From positions 1 through 64,000 of the forward strand of contig NZ_SPEY01000020.1 in assembly GCF_009360615.1 (NCBI RefSeq): DNA of 64,000 bases, given 5' to 3'. Within the stretch, counting starts at the first letter, position 1. The number at the start of each line of letters is the position of its first letter. Made by a program: the position numbers and the translations under genes. This DNA comes from Comamonas sp. (lineage in GTDB: Bacteria > Pseudomonadota > Gammaproteobacteria > Burkholderiales > Burkholderiaceae_C). Under the pieces are notes generated by a model that was not told the DNA's origin, made no database searches, and saw only the letters and a program-made list of their open reading frames with translations. Positions 45,593-63,746 of the stretch are shown piece after piece.

Positions 45593-45668
45593 GCCGGTGT
45601 AGCTCAGTCGGTAGAGCAGCTCATTCGTAATGAGAAGGTCGCGTGTTCGATTCATGTCTCCGGCACCA
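45593..45668 (+). tRNA. tRNA-Thr (anticodon CGT)
   Basis: A 76-base cloverleaf: acceptor GCCGGTG, D-arm GCTC-AGTCGGTAGA-GC, anticodon loop TTCGTAA (CGT), T-loop TTCGATT and 3' CTCCGGC-A-CCA. One U-U mismatch occurs in the acceptor stem. Its 3' half (from 45621) is the core of the integration repeat, so the integrated element supplies the present 3' end of the gene. A good terminator follows at 45680. Confidence 0.95.
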
Positions 45669-45669
45669 A
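45621..45669 (+). repeat. att core, left copy (attL)
   Basis: The 49-base stretch from TCATTCGTAATGAGAAGG to CTCCGGCACCAA covers the anticodon-to-CCA half of tRNA-Thr. It is identical to 63537-63585. Upstream sequence differs, so recombination was within this block. Confidence 0.92.
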
Positions 45670-45905: not shown

Positions 45906-46068
45906 AATCTCATGCGACCACTGCAGAAAGTCACGGCGATGCGCGGGTTGCTGGCGCTGGTCATCGTTGACCACCATTCCGCTTGGAGCTGACCTGCGTA
46001 TGTGACCTGGCCGTTGGCAGAAGCCGCTCTTCAAAGCGGACGCTATGCTAAGGGCACCAAGGAAAACC

Positions 46069-47304
46069 ATGCATATCGAATTACTAACTGACAGCAAGCA
46101 CGCCACCGATACGCTTGTCGCTCTCATGGGCAGTTGTGAGCGGGCAGCATGGGCGGTAGCTTGGGCAACAGAGAACCATAAGGTCTGGGATGCAGCCTAT
46201 GAACATCGGGCCAAGTTTCGCAATTTCGTTGTAGGCACCCATAATTTCGTGACTACCCCCTCTGTCATCGAGCGCTTCCAGTCGGAACCCAACTTCCGTG
46301 TTATCCATGCGACCGGGGCACTTTTCCATCCCAAGCTTTATGCCTTTCGGGTGGGCGAGGACACCGCAGTCGTCATCGGAAGCCACAACCTCACCCGCTC
46401 GGCATTCTCCGCGAATATCGAGGCGAGCACGCTTATTCAGGGGAAGGCCTGTGACCCTTCAATGCAGGGATTCTTCAAGTTCATCAGCGACGCGTGGAAT
46501 GCAGGCAAGGAGGTGACGCCGGAATGGCTCTTCGCATATAAGTCCAACTACGAGCGTGCCAAACAGGCGCACAAAGAGCTCAAGGTGTGGGTTGATGCCA
46601 AACCGTCCAAGGCGAAAGATGGCATCCCCGGCCCAGATGAGCTCGATTGGGCCCAGTTCGTGGAGTTGGTGAAGATTGAAAAGTCCGGCTCAACGCACAC
46701 CCTCGAAGGGCGACTTCGGGTACTAGAGGGCCTTAGGTCCATATTTAGGAAGGTGCCTTCATACAAGGACCTGGACGTCGACGACAGGAAGCGCATCGCA
46801 GGGACGATGGGCGAGGCTGACTCGCGCAAGAAAGATGGTGAGGGCTATGACTGGGCATGGTTCGGGGCAATGGCATCGAACGGGTCCTTCTCTACTACGG
46901 TCATCAATGACCCCGAAGGCCTTTCGCGCGCCCTTGATTGCATCCCACAGGTAGGGCCGGTACACCGAGAGCACTACGATGCCTTTGTCGAGGTCTTCAA
47001 GAATGCGCTGAGCTCAGACCTGTACGCATCGGGGGGCATCGGGAATGGCACTCGCCTCCTGGCCATGAAGCGTCCTGACCAATTCGTATGCCTTTGCTCG
47101 CCTAACAAGCGAGGTATCGCTGAGCACTTTAACGTTCCGTTGAATACGACCCTGGACACTTATTGGGAACGCATCGTGCAACGGATTCGTGGCACACGCT
47201 GGTGGAATGCCCCGGAACCGTCAGATGCGCTGGAACGTCGTATCTGGGCGGGGCGCGCGGCTCTGCTGGACGCTATCTACTATGACCCAGCTCAACGCAA
47301 GTAG
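46069..47304 (+). CDS. PLD-superfamily nuclease-like protein (HKD motif)
   Basis: A 411-residue protein with an N-terminal phospholipase D-like domain (~1-140). The catalytic set is visible as HPK (H87, K89) followed by VIGSHNLTRS (~102-111), the HxK...GSxN form used by nucleases and restriction enzymes of this fold. The remaining ~270 residues show no known domain. As one copy of the motif is present, a dimer should form the active site. AAGGA precedes the ATG at 46069; an upstream ATG at 46045 is possible. It is the first gene of the element after attL. Anti-phage or restriction function is likely but inferred from position and fold. Confidence 0.8.
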   Translation: MHIELLTDSKHATDTLVALMGSCERAAWAVAWATENHKVWDAAYEHRAKFRNFVVGTHNFVTTPSVIERFQSEPNFRVIHATGALFHPKLYAFRVGEDTAVVIGSHNLTRSAFSANIEASTLIQGKACDPSMQGFFKFISDAWNAGKEVTPEWLFAYKSNYERAKQAHKELKVWVDAKPSKAKDGIPGPDELDWAQFVELVKIEKSGSTHTLEGRLRVLEGLRSIFRKVPSYKDLDVDDRKRIAGTMGEADSRKKDGEGYDWAWFGAMASNGSFSTTVINDPEGLSRALDCIPQVGPVHREHYDAFVEVFKNALSSDLYASGGIGNGTRLLAMKRPDQFVCLCSPNKRGIAEHFNVPLNTTLDTYWERIVQRIRGTRWWNAPEPSDALERRIWAGRAALLDAIYYDPAQRK

Positions 47305-48373: not shown

Positions 48374-49234
48374 ATGTCGAAAGCCGAAATGAACTGGCGG
48401 TTTGCCGCAGTACACGAATACAACTCCTGGAGGCTGGCATCCTTCGAGTCCCAGGACAATGCAATTACTGGCTCAAAAGGTGCTCACAAGTTGCTCAGCG
48501 AGGGTCGATGGGGTACTCCACTTAAGCGGAAAGAAGAAGGCCTAGCACTTGCTGTATTGGTTTGGAAGACTTCCCCTAAGGGGCTCGACGCGACCCCCCT
48601 GGAAGAAGACACATCTTCAGCGACGGTCATTCGGCCCGTTCCTGGTGCAAAGAAGCATTTCGAGGAGGTGGTGGTACCCATTGAACAAATCAAGAGCTTC
48701 AAAAAGCTCAACGGCCCGACACCCGCTCAAATTGATGACTGGTTTGAGTTTTATAGTGTGGAAGGCACGGAACCTTCAAGCGATTCACAGGAGCCTAGCC
48801 TAGTCGAGTTCTACAGCTGGCTGGACAACGCACAACCGCCACTCTCAGCCACAGAAAAGGATGCACTGGTCAAAGTGCGCATCGGTCAAAGTGCCTATCG
48901 GCGCCGACTTCTGCGACGTTGGAAGGGCTGTGCCGTAACCGACTGCCGCGAGAAGACGTTGCTAATTGCCTCTCACATCAAGCCCTGGAGCGTGTCCACC
49001 CACGTTGAGCGCCTCTCCGTAGACAACGGAATACTCCTGAGCCCAACACTCGACAAGGCCTTCGATGCAGGACTAATCAGTTTTGGGGACGACTTCAAGG
49101 TGATGCTTCACTGTAATCTGAGCGTTCACTCGATGGAGGCTCTGCACCTTAAAGCGGATATGCGCCTAAGACAGCAGCATGAAGGCATGAGAGCTTTCTT
49201 AAAGTGGCACAGGCAATTTCACGGATTTGAATAA
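48374..49234 (+). CDS. HNH endonuclease (HNH_2 family)
   Basis: A 286-residue protein. The C-terminal ~120 residues are an HNH_2-type nuclease (VRIGQSAYRRRLLRRWKGCA, then CREKTLLIASHIKPWS with the first catalytic His, and LSVDNGILLSPTLDKAFDAG with the Asn/Asp and metal site). CAVTDC could hold a structural zinc. The N-terminal ~150 residues are unassigned and could recognise a modified or specific DNA. Such proteins act as type IV-like or solitary restriction enzymes. With the PLD gene to the left and an HTH gene divergent, this looks like defence cargo of the element. Confidence 0.85.
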   Translation: MSKAEMNWRFAAVHEYNSWRLASFESQDNAITGSKGAHKLLSEGRWGTPLKRKEEGLALAVLVWKTSPKGLDATPLEEDTSSATVIRPVPGAKKHFEEVVVPIEQIKSFKKLNGPTPAQIDDWFEFYSVEGTEPSSDSQEPSLVEFYSWLDNAQPPLSATEKDALVKVRIGQSAYRRRLLRRWKGCAVTDCREKTLLIASHIKPWSVSTHVERLSVDNGILLSPTLDKAFDAGLISFGDDFKVMLHCNLSVHSMEALHLKADMRLRQQHEGMRAFLKWHRQFHGFE

Positions 49235-49783: not shown

Positions 49784-50026
49784 ATGGCTTACACAGGATG
49801 GATGTCAGTAAAAATCGATGGCCACGAAAACGAGGTTATGGACATTCCAACACTGAGTGCCGTGCCGCCCTCGGATTTCAAAGACTACGCAGAAACACAC
49901 TTGCTGTACATCGACCACCATGATGTGATTCGAGCCACAGTGGGCGACTACCCATTCGCAACGTCTGCTGCTCAAGCAGACGAGCTCATCAAGTTGTTGG
50001 AAGAGTTCAAGCGGCGGATGGCCTAA
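49784..50026 (+). CDS. Small hypothetical protein
   Basis: An 80-residue protein with a good ribosome site (AAGGGGGG) six bases before the ATG. It has no motif I recognise; the sequence is mixed and acidic (VDGHENEVMDIPTLSAV, HLLYIDHHDVIRATVGD), with an amphipathic C-terminal helix (ADELIKLLEEFKRRM). Soluble, no signal peptide. It begins after the repeat-bearing region, and so may be controlled by it. Function unknown. Confidence 0.65.
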   Translation: MAYTGWMSVKIDGHENEVMDIPTLSAVPPSDFKDYAETHLLYIDHHDVIRATVGDYPFATSAAQADELIKLLEEFKRRMA

Positions 50027-50162
50027 ACCGGTCTAATTTAGAAAAATCGGCCGCTCATAGCTATCGCGCACATCACCTGCTATCTCTCGCGCGTGATGCG
50101 CATCGAAGTTCGACAGCAGTCGCAGGTGAATCCAGCCCCAAGACACACCTCAAGGAGATGTA

Positions 50163-50414
50163 ATGCGCGAAGAGACACCGACCGAATACGAGGTGGACAA
50201 GCTCTACCAAGTTAAGAAGGTGGCCGACAACCTGGCTGGCATTCTTGGGGTGGGCTGGGCAGGCTTTGCTTTCATGCTGTCCCAGAATGCGCTCATCGGC
50301 GTTGCGGTCGGTGCAGCGCTGGCGCTGCTGGTTCGCGCTCCATATGCCAGGCGGTACAAGGCGGCCAAAGCCTACCTTGACCACCTCACCTCATCATCTG
50401 GCGCCAGCAGCTGA
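50163..50414 (+). CDS. Small membrane protein
   Basis: An 83-residue protein with an AAGGAG site before the ATG. One or two hydrophobic segments (LAGILGVGWAGFAFMLSQNALIGVAVGAALALLV split at the middle) suggest an inner-membrane hairpin; both ends are charged. It overlaps the end of the convergent ejection-protein gene by 21 bases (50394-50414). No family recognised; position next to phage-like genes suggests a superinfection or envelope role, but this is speculation. Confidence 0.65.
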   Translation: MREETPTEYEVDKLYQVKKVADNLAGILGVGWAGFAFMLSQNALIGVAVGAALALLVRAPYARRYKAAKAYLDHLTSSSGASS

Positions 50415-52742
50415 TATAGGGGCTGACAGCAGGCCGGGTTGAAACCCAGTACTGGGCGCGACCAGTGTGACTGGCGAAAGCAGGCTTTGCTGCATCCTGT
50501 TGCTAGACAGAAGACCGCGCATGGCCGGCCTTGCCAAGATGAGCCCCATGGCCCCGACATTGCCAGTTGTCGCCCCTAGAGTTGCAGGCACCACAGCATC
50601 AAAGAAACCAAGGCTTGGCACGCTTCCAACCACTTCAGGTGTGCGCATCACCGTGGGAAATGTTCGGCCGGCTTGAGCAATGGACAGCATGTCGCCAGTG
50701 AGCGGCTTGCCTCTTTTAAGAGCCGCACCCAATGCTTTTGCATCGATATTCCCCGATGGCGTCAATACCCGCTCCAACTCGTGCACCCGTGCAATTTGTT
50801 GCCGCGCATCCCTGAATGCCTGCACAGCTGCTTCGTTTCCTGTCCCTTGCAGGTGGCGCTCGAGTTGGTTCTCAATAGCTGTCGCAGTTTTTCGCGCTGC
50901 TCGGCCGGCGGTCTGATTGCCGGCCGCAAACAGGTCACCAGCTCTTTCACGCAAAGTCCTGATGGCATCGACGGCAGAGCTGCTATCCATCGTCTTGACG
51001 TTAGCGCCCTTCACAATCTTGGCCACCCCGTTATCCGGGACCAATCCAGGGAAGCTGTTCTTGGTGTTGGCGTATTGCTTGCCGATGTCTCTGAGCTCAG
51101 TTCTAAATGCCTTGTCTGGGGTGATGGGGCCCAGATTACGGAGCGTCTCGTAACTCTGCCCTGCCTGTTGGCGCAGGTTGGCCAGAGACTGGCGGGATAG
51201 CTCCGCCCCCTCGGGCAATCCAACCGCACGGCGAGCCAAATTGTTGGAGGCCTGCTGGTTGCTTAGCGTCAGCTCTGCATTGAGCTTTGCTCGGTCCAAA
51301 GCGCCATCAAGCACACGATTTACCGTCGATGGCTTTGCCTGGCTCGGTGGCAGCTTGTAGCCCGCCTCGATTGCGTCCTTTACTGCCTGGCGGTGCATCT
51401 CTGGCATGACTGGGCCGCGGGTCGCCTGCTGCACCGCCTGTCTCGTTGCCGAGACTGCCCCGGGAGCCATGGCCCCAAGCACGCCAGCCACCATCTGCCC
51501 ACCAATGCCAGCGCCGTTTTGCCTGGCTATCTCCGAAGAAGCTCCACCGGTGGCAGCGCTGGCCAACTGAGCTAGGGGCCGAGACCCCATCCAATTGAGC
51601 ACCGCTTGCGTGGTGGCGTTAGCCGCCTTTGTCGCCAATGCACCAGCAGCTCCTGCTGCACCGCCAGCGCCAGCCACGGCACGAGTGGCGGTGCCAACAA
51701 CGTTTTCTAGCTCTCCCTCAGGCTTTGGCAGCCCCATCCAGTCGGCCACGCTCGATGCAATCTGGCTTGTGCTCTTACTGTGCCGAGGTGCTGGGCGCGC
51801 GCCTTTTACCAAGTCGCCCATGCTGGTTTTCTCAGGGCCGCTCACAAGTCGCACAAGAGGGTCTGTTATGAAGTCGCGTACTGGCGTAGTAAAGATATCA
51901 GCCAATTGCCCTGTGCCTTCCAAGGCATAGCGTCCCGCCAGCCCTACCTGGCGCCCAATAGCGTCCATGGCGCTGCGCTCCTGTGGCGCTGCTGGTACTG
52001 GTGTTTTGGCCTTGTAGTCGCGCATCGCGGCTTCAAATGCGGCGCGAGGGTCTGCTCCCGAAGGATTAGATTGCTGTCCAGGCTGCGCGTGAGTTGGGGG
52101 CTGCTGCTGTGCAGGTGTGGCAGCCGCCGCGCTGACGTTACGGCCTTGGCCGCCGTACTGCGTTCGGTACTGCTGCATGGCTTGCTCGAATGCTCTGCGG
52201 GCATCAGGGCCGGACTGCTGCGGCAGTTCAGCAGCGCCAGCAGACGGAATGATGGTATCCAATGCGCGCTCCACAAAGCCTTGACTGCGCTTGGGCTGGG
52301 CGTAGGGGCTACTGGGCAGACTGGCCCAAGTTCTTCCATCTTTTTTCACGGCCGCCCCGAAGTTGCCCGCCAGCACGTCGGGCAGGGAGCCGTTACGGCG
52401 CATCAGCTCCAGTGCGGCCAGGTCCTGAGACCTAGGGCCAAAGTCCTGCAGTCCCAACTTGCCAGCCACATCGTCCCAGGTGGAGCCCAGAAACTGATAG
52501 GCACCGGCAGCGCTGGTCTTGTTTGGCTTTCCGTCGGTCTGCGTGAAGCTGTGCAGTGTTCGAGGGTGCTGCCGCAGGTCAGGCAACTGGCCGCCGCCGA
52601 AGGCCGTGGAGTAAGGAGTGCTGTCCGCCCCTCGGTAGGTACCCTCTGCCTGCTGCAGCATGCGCAGGTACATCTGCGCATTTGTATTGCCCAGTGCCTG
52701 GCTGAGCTGCTCGACCGTGTTGATGGAGTTTTGCTGGTTCAT
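50394..52742 (-). CDS. Putative phage ejection/internal virion protein with N-terminal muramidase domain
   Basis: A 782-residue protein. Residues ~20-150 resemble GH104-type phage lysozymes/muramidases (lambda R-like): YLRMLQQAEGTYRG with a probable catalytic Glu (E33), then SAAGAYQFLGSTWDDVAGKLGLQ and FGPRSQDLAALELMRRNGSL. The long remainder is Ala/Gln-rich and helical, with a hydrophobic AGAGGAAGAAGALA stretch (~360-380). This build fits podovirus ejection proteins, where a cell-wall-cutting domain helps DNA cross the periplasm (compare the T7 gp16 and P22 gp16 roles). It is the last gene of a three-gene operon; only 2 bases separate it from the gene upstream. The ATG at 52742 was chosen because the MGVLS extension overlaps that gene. 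Confidence 0.75.
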   Translation of the reverse strand: MNQQNSINTVEQLSQALGNTNAQMYLRMLQQAEGTYRGADSTPYSTAFGGGQLPDLRQHPRTLHSFTQTDGKPNKTSAAGAYQFLGSTWDDVAGKLGLQDFGPRSQDLAALELMRRNGSLPDVLAGNFGAAVKKDGRTWASLPSSPYAQPKRSQGFVERALDTIIPSAGAAELPQQSGPDARRAFEQAMQQYRTQYGGQGRNVSAAAATPAQQQPPTHAQPGQQSNPSGADPRAAFEAAMRDYKAKTPVPAAPQERSAMDAIGRQVGLAGRYALEGTGQLADIFTTPVRDFITDPLVRLVSGPEKTSMGDLVKGARPAPRHSKSTSQIASSVADWMGLPKPEGELENVVGTATRAVAGAGGAAGAAGALATKAANATTQAVLNWMGSRPLAQLASAATGGASSEIARQNGAGIGGQMVAGVLGAMAPGAVSATRQAVQQATRGPVMPEMHRQAVKDAIEAGYKLPPSQAKPSTVNRVLDGALDRAKLNAELTLSNQQASNNLARRAVGLPEGAELSRQSLANLRQQAGQSYETLRNLGPITPDKAFRTELRDIGKQYANTKNSFPGLVPDNGVAKIVKGANVKTMDSSSAVDAIRTLRERAGDLFAAGNQTAGRAARKTATAIENQLERHLQGTGNEAAVQAFRDARQQIARVHELERVLTPSGNIDAKALGAALKRGKPLTGDMLSIAQAGRTFPTVMRTPEVVGSVPSLGFFDAVVPATLGATTGNVGAMGLILARPAMRGLLSSNRMQQSLLSPVTLVAPSTGFQPGLLSAPISAAGAR

Positions 52743-52744
52743 GC

Positions 52745-54058
52745 TCAGTACCCCCATGTGGCCGGGTCTTGGCCCTGACTGGTTAGCACTTGGCGAATCA
52801 CTTCACGCGGCATGCCTTGCTGCTCATACTCGCGAGCAACAGTTCCCCAAGACTGTCCGCCCGGGTCGTAGCCTTTGGGCATCCTTCCTTGCAGCACTTC
52901 GCGCATGTTGGTGTAGTGAGTCTTAATTTTTTGCAGATTGGCCCTCAACTGAGTTTCGCTTTGGCTGGTGTCGAGGTTGGCCACAGTGGATTGCAGGGCC
53001 TGCAGCTCCTGTACAGCCACGCTGCCCAGTGCTCCGCCAGTTGGCGAAGCTTCGCGCATAGCTTGCAGTTCCGCAAAGCCGAGGTTGGCTTTGATGGTGC
53101 CCAGCGTGGCGCGAAGGTCGCTGGCGCTGCTACCCGGTATCTTGGCTGCAGCAGAGCCACTAAGGCCGGTGGTGAACCAACTGTTCAATTGCTTGTCAGC
53201 CTCATCTACGGATGAAATCATGCGGTCCGCTTGAGCAATCGCGCCCTTGGTGCGCATATCTTCCTTCTTGCCGGCGATGGTGGCTTTTTCATCGGCGGGT
53301 CCTCCTGGGATAGCCTCGAGTCCGCCATCTGAGCGCCAACGGAAGCCCTGAGGCGGCTTACTGGAGTCGCTAGGCTTGCTCATGTCCCACTGCAAGCGGT
53401 CGGCATTGGTCTGAGCATTGGTCGCGCCGCTGACGTCGGAATATGTTGGCGTCTTGCGACCAAGGTCGCGTACTTGGCCGGTCACGGTATCAAAAGAGGC
53501 TTGATTGCCGCCAAAGTCCAGCGTCTTGAAGTCGCTGAACGGCTGCGCCCCTGTGTTGATGGTGCGGCCATCCTTGGTGAAGGCTGTCCGGGTGACGCTG
53601 CCATCGGGGTTCCGCACGTTCTGGTATTCCTGAATCTGAGGGGCGTTGAAGCCTGAAATGTGGGGCAAGTCAACGGGCTTGACTGCACCAGTTCGCAGCA
53701 GTGCTTGAATGTCTGCGTCGTATCCGCCACCCTCACGCGGCTTGATGCTGGAAAAAGCGTTCTGCCGCTCTTGCTCTTTCTGCATGGAGAGCTGGCGCTG
53801 GACATCCTCCATAAGCCGGTTTCGCTGCTGCTCTTGTGCCTGGCCATAGGCAGAAAGGCCCAGTAGACCGCCGCGACCAATTGCCTGTGCGGTGGTGCCG
53901 CGGCTGGCCAGAGCACCGAAGCCAGCGCCCAGCAAGCCTTGAGCAACCGGGGAACTCAGCAGGCCCATGAAGCCGCTCGGCTCCTGCTGCTGTTTGGTTT
54001 GATTGAGGATTGAAAGCCAGTCGGCTGGGGTTGTGGAGCCGGGAAATTGCTGGTTCAT
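52745..54058 (-). CDS. Putative phage DNA-ejection protein (middle gene of the cassette)
   Basis: A 437-residue protein, glycine/glutamine-rich at the N-terminus (GLLGAGFGALASRGTTAQAIG, a possible membrane-active segment), then helical. The region near residues ~340-400 (LGSVAVQELQALQSTVANLD, then LRANLQKIKTHYTNMREVL) looks like known podovirus ejection proteins. Its size and position between a small upstream and a large downstream gene match the P22 order 7-20-16. A strong site (GGGAGG) precedes the ATG at 54058. The family assignment is by pattern, not search. Confidence 0.65.
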   Translation of the reverse strand: MNQQFPGSTTPADWLSILNQTKQQQEPSGFMGLLSSPVAQGLLGAGFGALASRGTTAQAIGRGGLLGLSAYGQAQEQQRNRLMEDVQRQLSMQKEQERQNAFSSIKPREGGGYDADIQALLRTGAVKPVDLPHISGFNAPQIQEYQNVRNPDGSVTRTAFTKDGRTINTGAQPFSDFKTLDFGGNQASFDTVTGQVRDLGRKTPTYSDVSGATNAQTNADRLQWDMSKPSDSSKPPQGFRWRSDGGLEAIPGGPADEKATIAGKKEDMRTKGAIAQADRMISSVDEADKQLNSWFTTGLSGSAAAKIPGSSASDLRATLGTIKANLGFAELQAMREASPTGGALGSVAVQELQALQSTVANLDTSQSETQLRANLQKIKTHYTNMREVLQGRMPKGYDPGGQSWGTVAREYEQQGMPREVIRQVLTSQGQDPATWGY

Positions 54059-54068
54059 GTTGCCTCCC

Positions 54069-54554
54069 TTAAATGTCCTGCAACTCAATGGCACAGAAGG
54101 TCACGAGGTGGGCGCGAATCTGGCGTAGCCCTGCAATCTCAAAGGCGGTATTCATCAGCTCGGAAGCCTCATCGCCCGTCTGCATGCCATTCCAACTGGC
54201 CATCAGAATGATGCTTTCCCCTTGCTCGATGGCGCAATCCACATGTGCAGCCAGCACGTCGAAGCGGGTGTGCTGGTCTACAAGTAGCAGGGCAGAGCGA
54301 ATGTCGCGCATCTGCAGGCGGGCCAGTTCGGCCGCCTCGGATTGTGGGTCTTGGGCTTCGGTGGCCACACACACGGCCAGCAGCGCCAACAAGTGGGTAC
54401 GCAATCGCGCTAAGCGTTCGCCCTCTGCACCATTGGGTATGGCAATAGCGCCATCAGTGCCAGGCAGCAGACAGTCTGCGTGCCAAGAGAAGCCAGCGGG
54501 CGCGACAGCGCCGGCAGGAACGTGGAAAGTGTTGGATGGGCAAGTAACTGCCAT
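54069..54554 (-). CDS. Small protein at the head of the ejection-protein operon
   Basis: A 161-residue protein that I do not recognise. The N-terminus (MAVTCPSNTFHVPAGAVAPAG) looks like a structural beta start; the rest is helical with ALLLVDQHTRFDVLAAHVDC. GAGGA precedes the ATG at 54554. It is 10 bases upstream of the 437-residue gene and first in the operon, the place of P22 gene 7 or 14, but similarity is not evident. Two repeats upstream (54652-54713) may control this operon. Confidence 0.55.
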   Translation of the reverse strand: MAVTCPSNTFHVPAGAVAPAGFSWHADCLLPGTDGAIAIPNGAEGERLARLRTHLLALLAVCVATEAQDPQSEAAELARLQMRDIRSALLLVDQHTRFDVLAAHVDCAIEQGESIILMASWNGMQTGDEASELMNTAFEIAGLRQIRAHLVTFCAIELQDI

Positions 54555-54651
54555 GAGTAGTCCTCGAGAATGGTCTGAGGCGTAGCCGTGCCCCCTAAGA
54601 CGTGGCAGCGCAGGCCTAAAGGCCGCACGCTGAAACACTGTCCAAACCAGT

Positions 54652-54713
54652 CCGAATCACTCAGGACATTTCGCAGTTTGCAGTTTGTTTGCCACTGGAC
54701 CGAGTCACTCAGG
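54652..54713. promoter_or_regulatory. Paired CCGARTCACTCAGG sites upstream of the ejection operon
   Basis: CCGAATCACTCAGG at 54652-54665 and CCGAGTCACTCAGG at 54700-54713 match in 13 of 14 positions, with 48 bases between starts (about 4.5 turns). They lie in the 225-base gap upstream of the operon start at 54554. They may bind an activator of this late-type operon. Confidence 0.5.
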
Positions 54714-54779
54714 CCCAGGCAAGATTCGTATCAATAACTGTATGCGTTCACAGGATTGTGCAATGCGCCGAAAAAGGCA

Positions 54780-55052
54780 TCAAGGCTTTACCACCGGTGT
54801 GTTGGTGAAATAGGCGCTGACAAGCTCGGCGGTGGTCTTGCGGCTTAGTCCGAGTGCGCGGGCAATGCCCTCCAGTCGCCGCTTTTCCACCACCAGCGCG
54901 TCGCGCGCAGCCCCTGCTGTGCTCTGCTGCAGTAGCGTGGCCTGTGCCGCTTGCTTGGCAGCGCTTGCCCTTGCTGCCTGGTGCACCAGCGATAAGCCCG
55001 GTGCAGGCATTTGCATAAGTGGGGCTTGTGCGGCCTCAGTCTTGCAGCTCAT
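54780..55052 (-). CDS. Small hypothetical protein
   Basis: A 90-residue Ala/Gln-rich protein. Residues ~45-80 (RDALVVEKRRLEGIARALGL then SRKTTAELVSAYFTNT) could form a DNA-binding helical pair. Its start overlaps the end of the SSB-like gene by 17 bases, so it belongs to the replication operon and is its last gene. Function unknown. Confidence 0.55.
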   Translation of the reverse strand: MSCKTEAAQAPLMQMPAPGLSLVHQAARASAAKQAAQATLLQQSTAGAARDALVVEKRRLEGIARALGLSRKTTAELVSAYFTNTPVVKP

Positions 55053-55386
55053 CGTTCTGCCCCTGTTGCATGGCCCTGCGCTTGCGCTGTACGTGGTATG
55101 AGGTCAACACCGCATGCACCACAACATCAAGGCCAGCGCGAGCCTCTCCGTTTCGGTCAGCCCATGCCTTTGGAGTGAGTTCACCAGCAAGGGCAATGCT
55201 GTCCCCATCGCCCAGCGCCAGCAGTGCTGCAACGGCATCCGGTGCGAAGGCAATGCAGTTGGCAAAGAGCACATCCCCGCTGGCGCTTGCCGCGCGCACC
55301 TTTGCGATGACAAAGGGCTTGTCATTGCGCCCCATGCGCTGCTCTGGTTGGCCGTGCAGCCTCCCGGCAATGAGTCCGTCCATCAT
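55036..55386 (-). CDS. SSB-like single-stranded DNA-binding protein
   Basis: A 116-residue OB-fold protein. The pattern MDGLIAGRLHGQPEQRMGRN then FVIAKVRAA and GDVLFANCIAF and GDSIALAGELTPKAW matches short phage SSB/PriB-like proteins. AGGAGGG lies just before the ATG at 55386. It overlaps the ATPase gene stop, so it is translated with it. It would coat single-stranded DNA during replication of the element. Confidence 0.75.
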   Translation of the reverse strand: MMDGLIAGRLHGQPEQRMGRNDKPFVIAKVRAASASGDVLFANCIAFAPDAVAALLALGDGDSIALAGELTPKAWADRNGEARAGLDVVVHAVLTSYHVQRKRRAMQQGQNDELQD

Positions 55387-57230
55387 GCTGTGCCCTCCTG
55401 TGCGGAATAGGCCTTCTCCGGCTGCACCACGTACACCCGGACATTGCGGCTGTGAATGCGCTTTTGCTTGGCACTCTTTCCGTCTGCGCCAGGACTCAGC
55501 ACTCCCGCCTGCTGAAGTACCTTGAGCGCGCGGGCAAAGTCAAAGCCTTTCAGGGCCTCGCGCATGCCATCTTTGGTGAACAAGTACAGCACTCCATCGG
55601 CGGTGCCTTCCCACCACCCAGCCCGGTCACGCACAGTGGCCTGCTGACGGTCCTCGTAGGGGCCAGTGGCATCAGAAAACCGGCTATCACCGTGGCGCTC
55701 GATGAAGCCCAGCACCGCCTGCACCACCTGGTCCTGCTCGGCATTACCAGACACCTCTCCGCGCTGCGTCAGCCAGGCTGCAAAGCCCACCTCTGCAGCG
55801 CTAGTGGCCTCGCCTTCGTCCCAACCTGTGATTCCGTATGCGGTGGCCAGCTCACCAGCCAGCGCCAGCACTGCCAGGCGTGCGGCAGCGCGTGCCGGCT
55901 GCCCGTCACCGCTGTCTATGCCGGCCAGCAGTTGCGCCTTAATAGCCTCTAGGCTCTGCACCATGTCTGAGGTGTCGCGGCTGAGTTTCTCCAGGAATGC
56001 CCTGCCAGCGGTTCCGTATTGCTGGCGACTGGCGCGCTTGATGGCATCGGAGAATGCTGGGCCGTTGGGGTGGCCATGCAGGTTGTCCCATGCACCATGG
56101 ATTCGCTGAACAGGAATGTCCAGCAGGCGCACCGCCTGACCAGCTTTCACCCGCTGGCCGGCATCAGCCATGCTGGTGGCTATGCTGCGCTCCCCGGTCG
56201 AAAGTACAGAGGTGCGCCAGCGCGTCACAGCCCGTGCACCGCCGGTGCGGCCTGCGCGCTGTTTGCCTCGGCCGTTGCCCAGCATGTAGACCACCTCGCC
56301 GACGTCGCGCGCGTCGCACTCGCTAATTTCATCCAGCGCCAGCATGCTGTCATTGAACAGGCTGGCACTGGCCTCCAGGCCGTTGGCCGTGGCTCTCCAG
56401 CTGCGGCGGTAGCTGTCGCCTCCCATCACGCTGCAGGCCCCCTGCAGGGCCGTGGTCTTGCCGGTGGAGCTGTCGCCAATCAAGTGCACACCGCCCGACT
56501 CTGCGCCCACCAGCGCCAGCACTGGGCCAGCAAAGGCGGTGCACAAGCCCAACACCAGCACAGGATTGCCCACGGCCGGGGCCGCAATGCTCCGGCGCCA
56601 GCCTTCTAGCGTGCCGCGTTGGCTGTACTCATCCGAATGCAGGGACTGTGCTTGAAACGTAACTTTCCCAGCTTGGGGGCCAATGACGGTATCCGGCAGG
56701 GCAAAGGCTTTGAACTGCCCGCCAGCCCAGCCGGTTTGCATGACCGCCTCCATCTTGCGGGCGGGCACCTGGCTTTGCAGATAGGTGGCCAGCGTGTTGC
56801 GGCCTGCGTTGCTGGGGTCGAGGTGCACCCCCATGGAGAGCAGCACGCCGCGCAGGTCGCTGGTGTCGCCGCGCAGCATCTCCATCGGCATGGCCCAGGT
56901 CTTCCACTTGCCCAGCGTATTGCGAAAGCGCAGCAGGCGGCCAAAGTTAGCCCCTGCGCTGTCGTGTGTCACAGCGTCTACATGCAGAGGGCTGCAAATC
57001 CACTGCTGCACCAGCGTGGGCGGGTTGTCGCCCTTGCTGGGCTTGAGACCGAAGTGCCAGACCCCAGCGCGGTACTTGCTGCCGTCGCTGGCGGTGTACT
57101 CATCGTCCAGCACCACGTAGCGCGGGCGCTCCTGCTCGCCGGGGATAGGGTTGTATGCGCTGGCGCTGGGTGCATCTACTACTGTGTCAACGTCCACGGC
57201 ATCGATGGCATCCTGGGTTTCAAACGTCAT
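55383..57230 (-). CDS. DUF927-type replicative ATPase/helicase
   Basis: A 615-residue protein. The central ATPase core (~210-420) has a Walker A GDSSTGKTT (252-260) and a Walker B-like SMLALDEISECD (~293-304), typical of DUF927 proteins found in phages and satellites next to primases. The N-terminal ~200 residues (WHFGLKPSKGDNPP, RGVLLSMGVHLDPS) also match that family. It would act as the replicative helicase with the Toprim primase gene upstream, with an 11-base overlap (start ATG at 57230 lies inside that gene). No ribosome site of its own is clear, consistent with coupling. Confidence 0.82.
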   Translation of the reverse strand: MTFETQDAIDAVDVDTVVDAPSASAYNPIPGEQERPRYVVLDDEYTASDGSKYRAGVWHFGLKPSKGDNPPTLVQQWICSPLHVDAVTHDSAGANFGRLLRFRNTLGKWKTWAMPMEMLRGDTSDLRGVLLSMGVHLDPSNAGRNTLATYLQSQVPARKMEAVMQTGWAGGQFKAFALPDTVIGPQAGKVTFQAQSLHSDEYSQRGTLEGWRRSIAAPAVGNPVLVLGLCTAFAGPVLALVGAESGGVHLIGDSSTGKTTALQGACSVMGGDSYRRSWRATANGLEASASLFNDSMLALDEISECDARDVGEVVYMLGNGRGKQRAGRTGGARAVTRWRTSVLSTGERSIATSMADAGQRVKAGQAVRLLDIPVQRIHGAWDNLHGHPNGPAFSDAIKRASRQQYGTAGRAFLEKLSRDTSDMVQSLEAIKAQLLAGIDSGDGQPARAAARLAVLALAGELATAYGITGWDEGEATSAAEVGFAAWLTQRGEVSGNAEQDQVVQAVLGFIERHGDSRFSDATGPYEDRQQATVRDRAGWWEGTADGVLYLFTKDGMREALKGFDFARALKVLQQAGVLSPGADGKSAKQKRIHSRNVRVYVVQPEKAYSAQEGTA

Positions 57231-58134
57231 AGGGCAAGCCCTCCAATACTTCGGCAAAGCACTCGCACACAGCGCCAGCACCAGCCAGCAAAAACAGGTC
57301 GTTAAAGTCGGTGGCCTTACGAGGCCGGCCAGCCGGGAAACTAGGTATAGAAACCAGCCCGCCAACGGCCAATGCAGCGGCATGGGCGGAAGTCAGCCCA
57401 GGATTGCCTTCGGTAGCGTGGTCATCGTCGGCCGCCAGGATGATGGGCAAGACCGGGAACTTACGGCGCAGAGCCTGAGCAACAGGTCCCAGGTTGCTGG
57501 CGCTGAATGCAGTGGCCACGGCCAAGCCGGTGGCGGCGTGGACGCTGTGCGCTGTGGCCATGCCCTCGCACACCACAATGGCCCCAGCAGGACGGCCCAC
57601 GCTGTGATAGCAGCCGTGCACACGCCCTCCGGCCATAAAGCGCTTTTCACCTGCTGCGGTAATGGTCTGCAGGCTGTGCAACGTGCCGCTGGTGTCGCGC
57701 ATGGGCACCAGCAGCATGGAGCCCTCAGCTCGCAGGCCGAAAGACTGGATGCCTTTGGCAACCAAGTATGGGTGCTGGGCCGTGGCGATGGCGGCCTCCC
57801 ACCGTGCTGCAGCTGTTACCTGCGTTTCACGGTAACGCTGCTGTAACGTTACATCCCTCTGCCGCTTGGCCTCCTGCACTCGCAGGCGCATGGTGTCACG
57901 CTCTGCCTGGGTCAAAGTACTTTCAGCCTTGCTGCACCATGTCTCGGTCAGGCCGGTGCGCCAGCAGCCAAACATGCCCGCGGGCAGGCCATCGTCATGC
58001 AGCACATACCAGCCAGCTGAATCGCTGCGCTTACCTGTAGCGCTGAAGCGGTGGAGCTGGCCGTCTGCTTGGATGGCGGCCGGCGCAACCAAACCTGCTG
58101 CCTCGATGGCTTGGATGAAGCGGTCCCCAATCAT
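57220..58134 (-). CDS. Toprim-domain primase
   Basis: A 304-residue protein with a Toprim fold: the catalytic Glu in GAIVVCEGMATAHS and the acidic pair in ILAADDDHATEGNPG, then KATDFNDL. The N-terminus (~1-60) has GWYVLHDDGLPAGMFGCWRTG, which resembles a small CHC-like or DUF-type substrate domain without a clear zinc set. It should make primers for the element's replication. Its ATG overlaps the stop of the 82-residue gene (ATGA), and it overlaps the helicase gene, so the replication genes form one tight operon. Confidence 0.85.
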   Translation of the reverse strand: MIGDRFIQAIEAAGLVAPAAIQADGQLHRFSATGKRSDSAGWYVLHDDGLPAGMFGCWRTGLTETWCSKAESTLTQAERDTMRLRVQEAKRQRDVTLQQRYRETQVTAAARWEAAIATAQHPYLVAKGIQSFGLRAEGSMLLVPMRDTSGTLHSLQTITAAGEKRFMAGGRVHGCYHSVGRPAGAIVVCEGMATAHSVHAATGLAVATAFSASNLGPVAQALRRKFPVLPIILAADDDHATEGNPGLTSAHAAALAVGGLVSIPSFPAGRPRKATDFNDLFLLAGAGAVCECFAEVLEGLPYDV

Positions 58135-58379
58135 GTGAGCCCCTCCACTACCCGGCGCATGTCTGCCGTTTTTCGCTCGTCGTCGCCGCCTGTGACAGAC
58201 ATAGCAACGCTGTTCAGTTCGAGGATGCGCAGCACCATGGAGCGCATAAACAGCCACTCAGGTTCTGTCGGAAGGTTTTCCACTAGGTGTCGACCAATGG
58301 AATCAATTTCGTAGGTGCTAAACAGCACCAGTTGCTCTCGTTCGGCCTTCTGTTTTGGGGTAAATGCGGCCTCTATCAT
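58131..58379 (-). CDS. Small hypothetical protein
   Basis: An 82-residue, mainly helical protein (EREQLVLFSTYEIDSIGRHL, WLFMRSMVLRILELNSVAM). No motif recognised. Overlaps the upstream gene by 4 bases and the primase start by 4 bases, showing translational coupling with the primase. Confidence 0.6.
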   Translation of the reverse strand: MIEAAFTPKQKAEREQLVLFSTYEIDSIGRHLVENLPTEPEWLFMRSMVLRILELNSVAMSVTGGDDERKTADMRRVVEGLT

Positions 58380-58786
58380 GCTGCACCTACTTTCTTAAGT
58401 GCCTTTGCATTTGCGCTTTCCAGGTCCGCATCGGCATCAGTGGCTAAGGCAAACAGAGCGTCAATGAGACCGAACTCTAAGTTGTCGCCGAGACTGAAGG
58501 CATCACGGTCTGCGGCTGCCATCAAAATGCCGGTAATGGCCCTGATGCCACGCATACGCCGCGTAATGCTCTGGACTTCGCAGGCTTGTAGCGTGATAGC
58601 GCTGTGGTAGCCGCAATCGGATTGCAGAAGATACAAGTCGTGCAGGTTGAGGGGCTTGGGCTGGGCCTCGGCTCCTTCCACACCAACTATCGGCGTCTCC
58701 AAGTCTTCGCGATGCTTGCCAACGGCCTGATTTGTGCATGCGGCAGCCTTCACTGCCTCAATAGCAGCGTTATTTCGTGCATTCAT
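58376..58786 (-). CDS. Small hypothetical protein
   Basis: A 136-residue protein of unknown family. The first ~60 residues are polar; the C-terminal half is helical and Ala-rich (LMAAADRDAFSLGDNLEFGL, DADADLESANAKALKK). No signal peptide or domain is seen. Part of the overlapping gene chain upstream of the primase. Confidence 0.6.
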   Translation of the reverse strand: MNARNNAAIEAVKAAACTNQAVGKHREDLETPIVGVEGAEAQPKPLNLHDLYLLQSDCGYHSAITLQACEVQSITRRMRGIRAITGILMAAADRDAFSLGDNLEFGLIDALFALATDADADLESANAKALKKVGAA

Positions 58787-58789
58787 GAT

Positions 58790-59023
58790 TTAACCCTCTG
58801 GGTAGATTGAGGATGTGGTGCGCGATGCAGCGTGGCGGCCTTGGTGGTGCCACAGTTCAGGAGGAGTGGCAGCTAGCCAGCGACGCACAATCTCGCGGCC
58901 TACGCGCTCAGCAAATTCGGCAGGGTTGGCCTGTGCGATATGCCACAGCTGCGCCAGATAACTGTCGTTGATGCCTGGCAGCTTGTCAGCGTCAATCTGA
59001 AAGGTGATGCTGGAGGTAGTCAT
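58790..59023 (-). CDS. Small hypothetical protein
   Basis: A 77-residue soluble protein (ITFQIDADKLPGINDSYLAQ, VGREIVRRWLAATPPELWHH). No domain recognised. It overlaps the preceding gene (59020-59238) by four bases and is followed after three bases by the next, so it is co-translated. Confidence 0.6.
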   Translation of the reverse strand: MTTSSITFQIDADKLPGINDSYLAQLWHIAQANPAEFAERVGREIVRRWLAATPPELWHHQGRHAASRTTSSIYPEG

Positions 59024-59238
59024 ATGGCTGAGCCCTCCAGCGCCAGCGACAGGCCGCGCAAGGCGGTCAGAGCTTGAATGGCTTTGCGGCGCGCGCCAGG
59101 GACATTGGCTGCCGGCTGGCGCAGGTAGAACACGGCCATGGACAGCGCGTTATGCGCGTCGGCATGCAGTTGGATAGGGTCAGGGGTGCCCATGGCGGGC
59201 GTGGATGCAGCGGCGCGGATGGCCGTGGTAGTGGACAT
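59020..59238 (-). CDS. Small hypothetical protein (start uncertain)
   Basis: A 72-residue Ala-rich helical protein with AGGAG nine bases before the ATG at 59238. The frame remains open to 59541, with another ATG at 59418 that would give 132 residues; the extra part (TAELVFLTAMLHQLRVETQM) looks plausible as protein. I cannot decide between the starts. No family recognised. Confidence 0.5.
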   Translation of the reverse strand: MSTTTAIRAAASTPAMGTPDPIQLHADAHNALSMAVFYLRQPAANVPGARRKAIQALTALRGLSLALEGSAI

Positions 59239-59540
59239 GGTCTTGGCTCCTGAGCGAGTCAAAAGAACCACCATTTGCGTTTCTACGCGCAGTTGGTGGA
59301 GCATGGCGGTTAGAAACACGAGCTCAGCCGTGCGGACATCCTTACGGGTAGCCCCCGCCATGCCCCGTAACCGTTGAACTGGTGCATGCGGACGCACCAG
59401 TCCCAAGAATTTGGGCATGACAAAACCCCGCTTACAGGTGGGGGCTGCAACCTCTGAGCTAATGGTGTTTCTACGCACCGGGCCTTTCGGCTTAGCGCGA
59501 TTCTGCCACGAAGCGCAGCGCGAATGGAAGGGGGTATGCA
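59239..59540. other. Possible N-terminal extension or leader of the 59020 gene
   Basis: A 302-base stretch between two minus-strand genes. It is open in frame with the downstream gene. It contains a CCCC...GGGG hairpin near 59430 and two CGTAGAAAC units on the minus strand (near 59285 and 59475). Whether it is coding or a regulatory leader is unclear. Confidence 0.4.
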
Positions 59541-60011
59541 TTACGCACCCCCCTTTTGATTCCCAACACCAGGTTCGGCGTAACCTCGGGTGCCGTTAAT
59601 TGCAGCTGCAAGGCGATAGGCCTCAGGGGCTTTAGCGCGAAGAGCTTTGCGAGCCTTGTGAACCTCGGCACACCATTCACCAGCACCAGCAGCGCGGGCT
59701 TCATGGATGCAATCAACAGGCAGGCGGTATGCGGCAACCAGCGCCATGCGACCGTCAGCACAGCCGGTTGCGCGAGTCTCGGCAGCAATAGGCCAGCCGT
59801 AGCGGTTGCTGAGGTAATGCACGTGGGCAGCAGCACGCATGGTGCTGGCATCGTCTAAGGTATCGACAGCCGTCAGAACCTCTCCAGCCAACAAATGGGC
59901 CAAAACTTCTGCGCAGGCGCTGCTTTTTTGGCTGGGGTATGTGAGAATGCGCTTGCTACCGGCGCTCAGTTCTGCATTTTTGTGGGGCTGGGCGTTATTT
60001 TTTTGAGTCAT
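59541..60011 (-). CDS. Hypothetical protein with a possible winged helix
   Basis: A 156-residue protein. The middle (AAHVHYLSNRYGWPIAAET) resembles a short winged-helix segment seen in phage regulators; the C-terminal half is helical and basic (HKARKALRAKAPEAYRLAAA). It starts two bases after the stop of the HTH gene upstream and heads the small-gene chain. The role is probably regulatory, but this is a guess from pattern. Confidence 0.55.
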   Translation of the reverse strand: MTQKNNAQPHKNAELSAGSKRILTYPSQKSSACAEVLAHLLAGEVLTAVDTLDDASTMRAAAHVHYLSNRYGWPIAAETRATGCADGRMALVAAYRLPVDCIHEARAAGAGEWCAEVHKARKALRAKAPEAYRLAAAINGTRGYAEPGVGNQKGGA

Positions 60012-60361: not shown

Positions 60362-61450
60362 TCAAACGTGCCGCTCTGTCATTCGAGCGATGGCCTCTCT
60401 TAGCGCTGCAAGGTCCACAGTCTTCACATCGCCATTGCTGGCGTAGTATTTCAAGCCATCCTGCATAACCTCGAAAATCTCCGCAGGTTTGGATGTGCTC
60501 CATTCATCCAAAACATCCCTTGGTGTCGGACGGCGTAGCCGGCCTTTCTGCCATTCGTTGTACAGGAGCTTGTAAAGCGGGGCACTGTATGGTGAAAAAC
60601 GCTTCGGCCTTTTGACTACCCAGTCTTGGGTCTCAGCCTTCCCTCGCCTCTCGGCCACCTGAATAGCTTCAACCTCCGCCCTTGCTGCTTCTATTTCTTC
60701 ATCAGTCCAATCAGGTGGAGCCTTTTCTTCGTCGCCGCACCATATCCGAGCCGTCATGGACAATGGAGTGGGGCGCGATTCTGCAGAAACTGACTCGGGC
60801 TCAATACTCAGTTCAACGAAACTACCTGAACGCTTCAGATACTCCTCCAGGTCCTTCATGCTGACCACTGCATGCTGAGCGTTGACATAGCTAGGTAAGC
60901 GTTCCCCGGTGATAGGGTCACGTATTGGAAGTTCACCCCTAGTTATTGCGGCGTTGATGGAGGACTCGTAACGCACCAAGTTGAGACCCAACTCTAGCTC
61001 ATAGATTGCCCACTCTTCATCATCCTCATCCGGGTGCGGGGGAGGATTGCGGGTAACAGCATCCGCCAATAGGCAGTGCAAATCTGAAACCGGAATTGCT
61101 ATTTTTTTGGCCGGCCAGATGATTTTTTTCATTTCTAGCGGCATTCCGCTACGCCCCCCAGGCGCCGACAAATCGTCCCGAGTTATCTCTGTGTTAGCGC
61201 TGGCAAACATGCGCCCCCCACGCAGTGGAGTAATAGGTGGTGGCGCTTCAGTTGTTAACTTAATGCCAGCCTGAACGAGTATTCGACGTCGCTCTTGTCG
61301 GGGTAGCGTTTCAAGCTGTTTGTACAACTCGGCCAATTCAGCGGCTTGTAGGGCTTCGCTTTCACACTGTTGCGCCTCTCGTTGCTTTTCCTCTTCTCGA
61401 TTGGCTAACGCCAAGCGCAGCCTCTCTACCGGGCTCTTGTTCTCGCTCAC
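60362..61450 (-). CDS. Hypothetical protein of the element
   Basis: A 362-residue protein of unknown family, starting with GTG at 61450 after AGAAGGGG (a TTG at 61477 is the weaker alternative). The N-terminal ~60 residues are a charged helix (ALANREEEKQREAQQCESEA), then an AMFAxANT-like core and KKIIWPAKKIAIPVSDLHCL. The C-terminal part has RPTPRDVLDEWSTSKPAEIF, a helical segment similar in look to short DNA-binding ends. No transmembrane part. It lies between the integrase side and the replication side of the element. The codon pattern differs from chromosomal genes (more A/T). Confidence 0.65.
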   Translation of the reverse strand: MSENKSPVERLRLALANREEEKQREAQQCESEALQAAELAELYKQLETLPRQERRRILVQAGIKLTTEAPPPITPLRGGRMFASANTEITRDDLSAPGGRSGMPLEMKKIIWPAKKIAIPVSDLHCLLADAVTRNPPPHPDEDDEEWAIYELELGLNLVRYESSINAAITRGELPIRDPITGERLPSYVNAQHAVVSMKDLEEYLKRSGSFVELSIEPESVSAESRPTPLSMTARIWCGDEEKAPPDWTDEEIEAARAEVEAIQVAERRGKAETQDWVVKRPKRFSPYSAPLYKLLYNEWQKGRLRRPTPRDVLDEWSTSKPAEIFEVMQDGLKYYASNGDVKTVDLAALREAIARMTERHV

Positions 61451-61553
61451 TTTTGCACCCCTTCTGGTGCCCTTCAAGAAACGCCCTGGCAGGCGGGTGA
61501 AGGTTCCCCCGCTTTTCGGTTCGCGGGCCTAGCCAGGGGTATCAAACATTGAC

Positions 61554-61907
61554 CTATTCGTCGTAGCCGAGAGCCTTTCGTCGCTGCGCCTCTCGCTCGG
61601 AGTAACTGATACGACTGTCGCGCCAAACATCGCGACCCCACTTGCAAAGGAAAAAGAGCAAAGCGCAGTTCAGTACAACAGATATAGAGACAGCGATGAA
61701 ATTGCCCGCTTCACGCCAGTTGAGGCCCAGTCCGTCCAGCGCAGAACTGGAGAGATACAGGCCGCCACCAACCACTACGACTGCAATAGCACCCCATTTC
61801 AAGAGCTTCAACAACAGTGGCAGGAGAGCTGCAAAGATGGTCAGTCCAAGCACGATAGCCACTAACCACACAAATGCAGACGCAATGAGAATTGCACCAC
61901 TCACCAT
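61554..61907 (-). CDS. Small integral membrane protein
   Basis: A 117-residue protein with GGGAGG before the ATG. There are three likely membrane segments: ASAFVWLVAIVLGLTIFAAL, LKWGAIAVVVVGGGLYLSSS and NFIAVSISVVLNCALLFFLC. The tail is charged (DSRISYSEREAQRRKA). It lies between the integrase and the 362-residue gene. No family recognised; membrane proteins in this place can serve exclusion or defence, but this is unproved. Confidence 0.7.
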   Translation of the reverse strand: MVSGAILIASAFVWLVAIVLGLTIFAALLPLLLKLLKWGAIAVVVVGGGLYLSSSALDGLGLNWREAGNFIAVSISVVLNCALLFFLCKWGRDVWRDSRISYSEREAQRRKALGYDE

Positions 61908-63382: not shown

Positions 63383-63400
63383 AACGTGCCACTCGATATT

Positions 63401-63419
63401 TGTAGGCAATCTGTAGGCA
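63401..63419 (+). repeat. Probable integrase arm-type site, right
   Basis: TGTAGGCAATCTGTAGGCA, identical to 45727-45745 and in the same orientation. It begins 18 bases upstream of the integrase start, so bound integrase would also repress its own gene. Confidence 0.65.
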
Positions 63420-63536
63420 AATTCGGTAAACACCGACATGTACAAATCAACAGGCATTCAGCCCACCAATCGCATAAGCCTTTGTTTTTCAATGCCTACT
63501 CAACGCTATTCTACGCAAACAAACACCACTCACCAA

Positions 63537-63585
63537 TCATTCGTAATGAGAAGGTCGCGTGTTCGATTCATGTCTCCGGCACCAA
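63537..63585 (+). repeat. att core, right copy (attR, or junction of two elements)
   Basis: Exact 49-base repeat of 45621-45669. It lacks the first half of tRNA-Thr. A second integrase begins 161 bases further right, so this site is probably shared by two stacked elements. Confidence 0.9.
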
Positions 63586-63746
63586 TAAATTCAACGACTT
63601 ACGAGTCGTGATTGTTCAAAGTGTCGTCTCCTGTCACACTCAAGTCACAGTAGACGGCACAACTGAACAACGCTGCGCAGTAGCGCTATCTCTCTCCAGC
63701 CAGTTCTTGTGCCGTCACATTTCGCTGACCACACACAAGACGCACC

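Follow-up and report, generated by a model that had tools for sequence, protein, structure and literature searches.

A satellite-type element of Comamonas sp. carrying a predicted podophage-like ejection protein pair of apparently non-P22 lineage

Phage satellites are known to take their heads and tails from helper phages. We analysed a stretch of 64,000 nucleotides from Comamonas sp. (assembly GCF_009360615.1, contig NZ_SPEY01000020.1, positions 1 to 64,000; hereafter the window), in which an integrated element contains a three-gene operon encoding the proteins P0003, P0002 and P0001; a preliminary description had likened this operon to the ejection genes 7, 20 and 16 of phage P22. Two described elements are close to that of the window. 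EcCIMP1 is a 19,963-bp phage-inducible chromosomal island (PICI) in a tRNA-Thr gene of the commensal Escherichia coli strain MP1, to which Kapi1 is also native, and is transferred by this P22-type podophage (PMC11773190); its annotation (NZ_CP139039) gives a TOPRIM/DUF927 protein of 918 amino acids (aa), a 53-aa gene, a DUF2824 protein (153 aa) and a 225-aa gene, followed by a 'phage DNA ejection protein' (439 aa) and a 'lytic transglycosylase domain-containing protein' (906 aa). The Pseudomonas element phiAH14b is packed, together with phiAH14a, into like capsids, and its authors propose that it is a satellite (PMC4936722). As for ejection proteins themselves, P22 virions function with complete foreign 7-20-16 sets; between P22 and Sf6, gp16 and gp20 have to come as a matched pair, whereas Sf6 gp7 can substitute for P22 gp7 (PMC10883804). 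Streptomyces satellites encode encapsidation functions (PMC10690885), and for satellite-encoded ejection proteins we found no description in titles and the starts of abstracts, most subscription journals and preprints lying outside the search; as far as searched, satellites bringing their own DNA-injection proteins have not been described as such.

We conclude that the window holds what its sequence indicates to be a satellite-encoded ejection pair, P0002-P0001, of a non-P22 lineage. The operon proposed in the preliminary description is confirmed, as three intact open reading frames (ORFs) of 161, 437 and 782 aa lie on the minus strand with gaps of 10 bases (P0003/P0002) and 2 bases (P0002/P0001), and a purine-rich stretch precedes the start of each gene. 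The lysozyme-like domain noted at the N terminus of the last protein is also present: residues 20-151 of P0001 correspond to the lambda lysozyme domain (PDB 3d3d/1am7, E 1.8e-19), and the glutamate of its 'EGT' is aligned with the lambda lysozyme glutamate that we take to be the catalytic residue. Residues from about 250 to 752 form the part homologous to podophage third ejection proteins; residues 262-752 match the 541-aa third-position protein of Acidovorax phage AP1 (35% identity over 499 aa, E 7e-55), and residues 461-779 match 'internal protein C' of Xanthomonas phage PBR31 (34% identity). When 30 viral loci encoding a relative of this C-terminal part (P0001-C) were scanned with seven seeds, podophage head or tail genes were found in 22. 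The third gene is assigned by these matches to the PBR31/AP1 lineage, and kinship with P22 gp16 did not show: hhalign gave no match of P0001-C to the single P22 gp16 sequence, and phrog_770 was likewise unmatched. The three genes follow the small-middle-large order of adjacent ejection-type genes, and, when compared with the size ranges given for podophage ejection proteins (181-240, 431-982 and 609-1337 aa; PMC8954989), P0002 and P0001 fall inside and P0003 below. Because P0002 and P0001 have phage relatives, we do not regard the resemblance as one of chance.

P0002 is composite. Its N-terminal part resembles the product of the second ejection gene (B, following A and followed by C) in a podophage prophage of another Comamonas species (44% over 172 aa); this prophage also encodes a major head protein, and its gene A belongs to a PHROG named 'DNA ejection protein' (4.2e-13). 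The C-terminal part resembles the protein encoded upstream of the third-position gene in AP1 (31% identity) and the protein in the gp20 position of a phage-plasmid of Arsenophonus whose gene order is of P22 type (36% over 124 aa). Like P22 gp20, P0002 also matches PHROG 2534 (E 1.6e-12), a family that carries the product name of P22 gene 20. The preliminary description saw no sequence similarity to P22; this holds for direct comparison, in which BLAST and hhalign gave no match of P0002 to P22 gp20, but has to be amended in view of the shared family and of the Arsenophonus protein. The positions of PHROG 2534 matched are 1-247 for P22 gp20, 280-410 for P0002 and 50-420 for the Arsenophonus protein. 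Since different halves of the family are matched, P0002 shares a module with the gp20 family and not the N-terminal domain of P22 gp20 (PF16928, Inj_translocase), to which it gave no match; gene B of PBR31 did not match P0002 either. Two weak matches to P0002 occur in Comamonadaceae, and the stretch in genome G288 was read by eye.

The proposed likeness to P22 7-20-16 holds for the second and third genes, which are relatives of second and third podophage ejection proteins in the same order, and is not supported for the first. P0003 has no match to the gp7 families P22_gp7 (PF25688), phrog_598 and phrog_4287, none in the phage collection, and none to the first ejection genes of P22, the Arsenophonus phage, two Comamonadaceae prophages, PBR31 and AP1. 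First genes of the other sets do fall into these families: P22 gp7 and the Arsenophonus gene into phrog_598 and PF25688, gene A of PBR31 into phrog_598, and gene A of the Comamonas G341 prophage into phrog_4287. In 53 Comamonas genomes P0003 gave two marginal matches (E about 0.005), and its fold, predicted for the protein alone, is poor, with a mean predicted local distance difference test (pLDDT) value of 50.6.

Among the other ejection systems compared, PBR31, AP1 and the G341 prophage are like the operon in that all three encode homologues of P0001-C in the order B-C, AP1 and the G341 prophage holding homologues of P0002 as well; unlike the operon, their ejection genes are preceded by head and tail genes and their C proteins are without the lysozyme domain. 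P22 shares with the operon the gene order, rough sizes and PHROG 2534 (the C-terminal half in P0002, the N-terminal half in gp20), whereas its gp20 and gp16 give no direct match and the operon is without gp7. In the T7 set gp14-gp15-gp16, as in the operon, a murein hydrolase begins the largest ejection protein (PMC8954989); T7 gp16 has 1318 aa against 782 aa for P0001, and the likeness is one of domain position. Of 29 viral third-position proteins that we read, five are long and seem to have a murein hydrolase at the N terminus (in one case by PHROG, in the others by eye; two of the five look identical), and these, together with relatives of EcCIMP1 gp16 in phages Dewey and Huey, rule out the hydrolase fusion as a satellite trait.

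The structural comparison suggested in the preliminary description gave a weak answer, and sequence homology a better one. Residues 250-782 of P0001, folded with 26 viral relatives, reached a pLDDT of 73.7 (alignment A3, from 26 of the 30 viral loci, that is, without L139, L140, L142 and L145; alignment A4 was drawn from five of the 30). A Foldseek search of the PDB with this model gave nothing at E <= 0.001; a second structural comparison gave helical matches with Z below 7 and was uninformative on P22 and T7 proteins. In BFVD, 17 matches were listed at E <= 0.001, and no function is given for any of them: 14 come from uncultured Caudovirales phages (two of them named LT_GEWL domain proteins) and three are unnamed; a match named 'Injection protein' lay outside this threshold (1.7e-3). 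A PDB profile search was unproductive, as were single queries of P0002, P0001-C and P0003 against viral_contigs, and an NCBIfam search with the operon proteins gave nothing informative.

What the preliminary description overlooked is the main point, namely that the operon sits in a satellite-type element in which no head genes were found. The element is 17.9 kb long, occupies a tRNA-Thr site and is bounded by attachment (att) repeats of 49 bp (Table 1). Its order from the right is integrase, 117-aa protein, 371-aa protein, AlpA-like protein, five small genes, toprim primase, DUF927 protein, single-strand-binding protein (SSB), 90-aa protein, operon and cargo (HNH and PLD genes); the AlpA-like 75-aa protein has a 95-aa homologue in Comamonas suwonensis (5.8e-24). 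In 20 element proteins scanned (one 80-aa frame left out), no terminase, portal or capsid was matched, and identity as an ordinary prophage is ruled out because head genes were not found. P4-like satellites are defined by seven markers (PMC8628076). In the window element integrase, alpA and alpha primase are represented, the AlpA match being weak and the primase split into toprim and DUF927 proteins; a strictly P4-like identity is ruled out because psu, delta and sid were not found among the 20 proteins. The element has the features of the phiAH14b/EcCIMP1 type: an integrase, an AlpA/helix-turn-helix (HTH) protein, toprim and DUF927 proteins, att sites in a tRNA gene, and no terminase or capsid found. 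In the operon leader, near-identical 14-base direct repeats, CCGAATCACTCAGG and CCGAGTCACTCAGG, lie within 54650-54714 and may be bound by an activator or a repressor. Scanning 50000-55500 for promoters and terminators gave no signal above shuffles.

Table 1. Coordinates of the element and its genes in the window
Feature	Position	Strand	Match or program
tRNA-Thr (CGT), integration site	45593..45668	+	ARAGORN
attL, 49 bp, identical to attR	45621..45669	+	
PLD-like protein, 419 aa, cargo	46045..47304	+	PF13091
HTH_17/excisionase-like protein, 91 aa	47972..48247	-	PF12728 7.8e-08, phrog_1840
HNH_2 endonuclease-like protein, 286 aa, cargo	48374..49234	+	PF13391
P0001, 782 aa, predicted lambda-R-type lysozyme domain + podophage third ejection protein	50394..52742	-	
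P0002, 437 aa, predicted podophage second ejection protein (gp20 position)	52745..54058	-	
P0003, 161 aa, orphan first operon gene	54069..54554	-	
Operon leader, 225 bp	54555..54779	-	
90-aa protein, weakly KorA/TrfB-like (below cut-off)	54780..55052	-	
Single-strand-binding protein (at Pfam cut-off)	55036..55386	-	PF00436
DUF927 primase-helicase, 617 aa	55383..57236	-	PF06048 1.3e-93
Toprim primase	57220..58167	-	PF13362; phiAH14b relative 9.7e-68
Five small genes (82, 136, 77, 173, 156 aa), function not assigned	58131..60011	-	
AlpA/excisionase-like HTH protein, 75 aa	60014..60241	-	phrog_597, phrog_66, weak
371-aa protein, function not assigned	60362..61477	-	
117-aa protein, function not assigned	61554..61907	-	
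Tyrosine integrase, 465 aa in longest frame (442 aa with start at 63388)	62060..63457	-	PF00589, PF13356
attR, 49 bp	63537..63585	+	

EcCIMP1 is like the window element in its tRNA-Thr site, its size (about 18-20 kb), the integrase at one end, the HTH/AlpA, toprim and DUF927 genes, the absence of terminase and capsid matches, and ejection genes placed shortly after DUF927, the last of them large and with a murein hydrolase; between DUF927 and these genes lie the 53-aa gene in EcCIMP1 and the SSB and 90-aa genes in the window. It differs in having gp14- and gp7-like genes, gp20 and gp16 of the P22 lineage and a fused toprim-DUF927 protein, whereas the window element has the orphan P0003 and ejection proteins of the AP1/PBR31 lineage. 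In the regions that align, the DUF2824, 225-, 439- and 906-aa proteins of EcCIMP1 share 83%, 57%, 26% and 24% identity with four Kapi1 proteins, which were placed as gp14, gp7, gp20 and gp16 by gene order. Among the 5426 complete E. coli genomes surveyed, the EcCIMP1 ejection gene set is present to at least 80% in 69, and the 2.6-kb junction from DUF927 to the gp7-like gene to at least 80% in 230. Four records besides MP1 were read in context (the intact satellite of PEC131, two decayed satellites and one prophage); the last of these, the P22-type prophage of strain 0H26, was the control and shows head genes. Between the MP1 and PEC131 satellites the primase, gp14 and gp7 are 99.5%, 98.7% and 99.6% identical, gp20 is 48% identical over 188 aa, and gp16 is without match; the gp20-gp16 pair seems to have been swapped as a unit.

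The element phiAH14b is like that of the window in its integrase, AlpA, small genes, toprim (293 aa), DUF927 and lack of head genes, and it has virion-type genes (tail assembly protein I and a lipoprotein) after DUF927, as the window has ejection genes. It is unlike the window element in its siphophage helper and in that no ejection proteins are annotated (PMC4936722). The window DUF927 protein shares 37% identity with its phiAH14b counterpart, 74% with that of Comamonas suwonensis and 33% with the fused protein of EcCIMP1.

On this evidence we think it reasonably probable that the operon serves as an ejection module for the integrated element, a phage satellite of the phiAH14b/EcCIMP1 type, replacing or joining the pair of the helper; of these, replacement in the particles is most likely. 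Both the use in particles and the type of helper are what we infer. Growth of a short-tailed helper phage in the host would be the occasion for the satellite to leave the chromosome; its toprim and DUF927 proteins would replicate it, heads made by the helper would take up its DNA, and P0002-P0001 would enter these heads instead of, or alongside, the second and third ejection proteins of the helper. On infection the lysozyme domain of P0001 would open the murein and P0002 would form a tube, of which the C-terminal part of P0001 would be the inner-membrane end, and the DNA would enter; a first ejection protein of gp7 type would be supplied by the helper, unless P0003 substitutes for it. The operon provides the pair that must match, without gp7, and the two E. 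coli satellites compared differ in that same pair, which fits replacement of the conduit. An ejection role becomes likelier because another bacterial order now has such a pair, in a like place and derived from another lineage of podophages, and because of the pairwise swap in E. coli.

The same pair could act by interference, mismatched satellite proteins spoiling the particles of an infecting podophage and so protecting the host population. P22 with Sf6 gene 16 alone or gene 20 alone gives no plaque-forming phages (PMC10883804), which means that mismatched ejection proteins can poison; EcCIMP1 adds to the superinfection immunity of lysogens against Kapi1 (PMC11773190), and interference with tail assembly can be PICI-borne (PMC11364771). 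A poison would, however, need neither a pair nor a lysozyme domain, whereas the operon gives B and C together and the pair changes together in the two E. coli satellites compared; moreover, EcCIMP1 left Kapi1 titres from induced lysogens unaltered (PMC11773190). We regard interference as quite improbable. For the ejection module, the benefit would be a conduit unlike that of the helper, through which satellite particles enter cells whose prophage excludes the ejection proteins of the helper. SieA exclusion depends on gp16 and gp20, and HK620 ejection proteins escape SieA in part (PMC10883804). This purpose is speculative and, in our judgement, unlikely; its odds were lowered because a Kapi1-like prophage is present in only 2 of 21 EcCIMP1 strains (PMC11773190) and because the Sf6, L and CUS-3 sets, three of four foreign ones, are still excluded by SieA in P22 (PMC10883804). 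The question of how a satellite enters cells guarded by its own helper becomes testable by deletion.

The small number of EcCIMP1 strains with a Kapi1-like prophage also weighs against the ejection module as such, and there are other such points. P0003, by its sequence an orphan without sign of P22 gp7, is unexplained, and 19-residue Kyte-Doolittle windows in P0001, P0002 and P0003 nowhere exceed 1.6. The genome (assembly 93% complete) yielded no podophage that could act as helper, and Pfam scans of 20 element proteins turned up no psu, delta or sid. The ejection family is rare, with 2 of 399 Comamonadaceae genomes matched by profile and 3 of 53 Comamonas genomes by the P0001-C query, the own genome included in both. 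The authors of EcCIMP1 did not identify any structural genes and suggested that the genes in question act in packaging (PMC11773190), and phages Dewey and Huey have a relative of EcCIMP1 gp16 across 97% of its length (46% identity). One of the decayed E. coli satellites retains DUF927 and a gp20 gene marked incomplete; the other is without primase and has a cut gp7 gene with whole gp20 and gp16 genes. Finally, relatives of the window DUF927 protein were scanned in GTDB contigs and the best 80 of 181 kept as loci; P0001-C, P0002 and P0003 were found in none of the 80 (several being ended by contig ends), so that one copy of the operon is known in this lineage.

In another account, a podophage with DUF927/toprim replication lost its head and tail genes by deletion; the integrase, the replication genes and the last part of the late operon stayed behind, the ejection genes being inert. 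The window does retain only B and C of the podophage set, decayed satellites do occur in E. coli, and a Burkholderiales genome, G579, holds at tRNA-Pro what is probably a deletion derivative of a podophage prophage (L013 9500-14164, L014 7531-8686), with integrase, cI- and O-like genes, a gene A that looks shortened by eye, ejection genes B and C, a tailspike and lysis genes; head genes were not seen, and L013 gave no match with the seven head/tail seeds. This makes a deletion remnant a real rival and counts against the ejection module. On the other side, podophage head or tail genes were found in none of the 80 DUF927-type loci, either with the seven seeds or with six Kapi1 seeds, the ORFs of the operon are intact behind their own 225-bp leader, and many E. 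coli satellites show a comparable arrangement. A single virion gene of another kind is present in two of the 80 loci: a tape measure of 986 aa, complete, after DUF927 in a phiAH14b-type satellite of Pseudomonas sp. Irchel 3A7 (L110 12490-15450; phrog_24, 1.8e-195), and a 335-aa P2-type major head protein after DUF927 in one of P. sivasensis (L103 12877-13881; phrog_70, 1.4e-123), which means that single virion genes do occur in this place. We consider a remnant unlikely.

As for these 80 loci in general, a toprim relative is present in 65 and a window-like integrase in 19. The genes downstream of DUF927 in loci read by eye are mostly host or defence genes or of no assigned function; they were read in 26 of L038-L083 (at least 5 kb) and listed for 30 of L082-L117 (at least 2.5 kb), and family tests covered seven proteins of L103, L110 and L117 and three of L030 and L034. 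Locus L108 looks by eye like the P. sivasensis satellite, and in a Comamonas satellite of genome G301 (L034 6398-7054) a 218-aa fragment of a tape measure start lies nearby on the opposite strand. A wider and doubtful suggestion is that satellites of this type have a delivery slot after DUF927, in which genes for DNA delivery can be exchanged to suit the tail of the helper (ejection sets here and in E. coli for short-tailed helpers, the tape measure in Irchel 3A7 for a long-tailed one). These genes would re-arm the helper particle to enter the cells that the satellite needs, namely helper lysogens, from which the particles of the helper itself are shut out.

The operon might also serve another element, or a bacteriocin or toxin, unrelated to satellite transfer. 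A second integrated element apparently adjoins (its integrase beginning at 63747, with a third att copy at C36:95806) and a Mu-like prophage is apparently present; no toxin family was matched by the operon proteins in PHROG, Pfam and NCBIfam scans, and the podophage head or tail genes that accompany relatives of P0001-C in 22 of 30 viral loci, by the seven seeds, point away from such uses, which we hold to be very improbable. The adjoining element seems to be integrated in tandem and runs from 63586-64000 on to G000:C36:95835 (L002, L003), with a tyrosine-integrase-like frame of 365 aa after attR and the third att core copy at C36:95806-95835. The only clear terminase-like match in the genome is that of the apparent Mu-like prophage, and Terminase_6N is absent. 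By eye this prophage occupies about 12000-45000 of G000:C16 (L153-L155), with transposition genes, portal, terminase and a 1732-aa tape measure frame. A second match to phrog_2, which we take to be the terminase large subunit, lies on contig C55 and is by eye a RecB-like protein.

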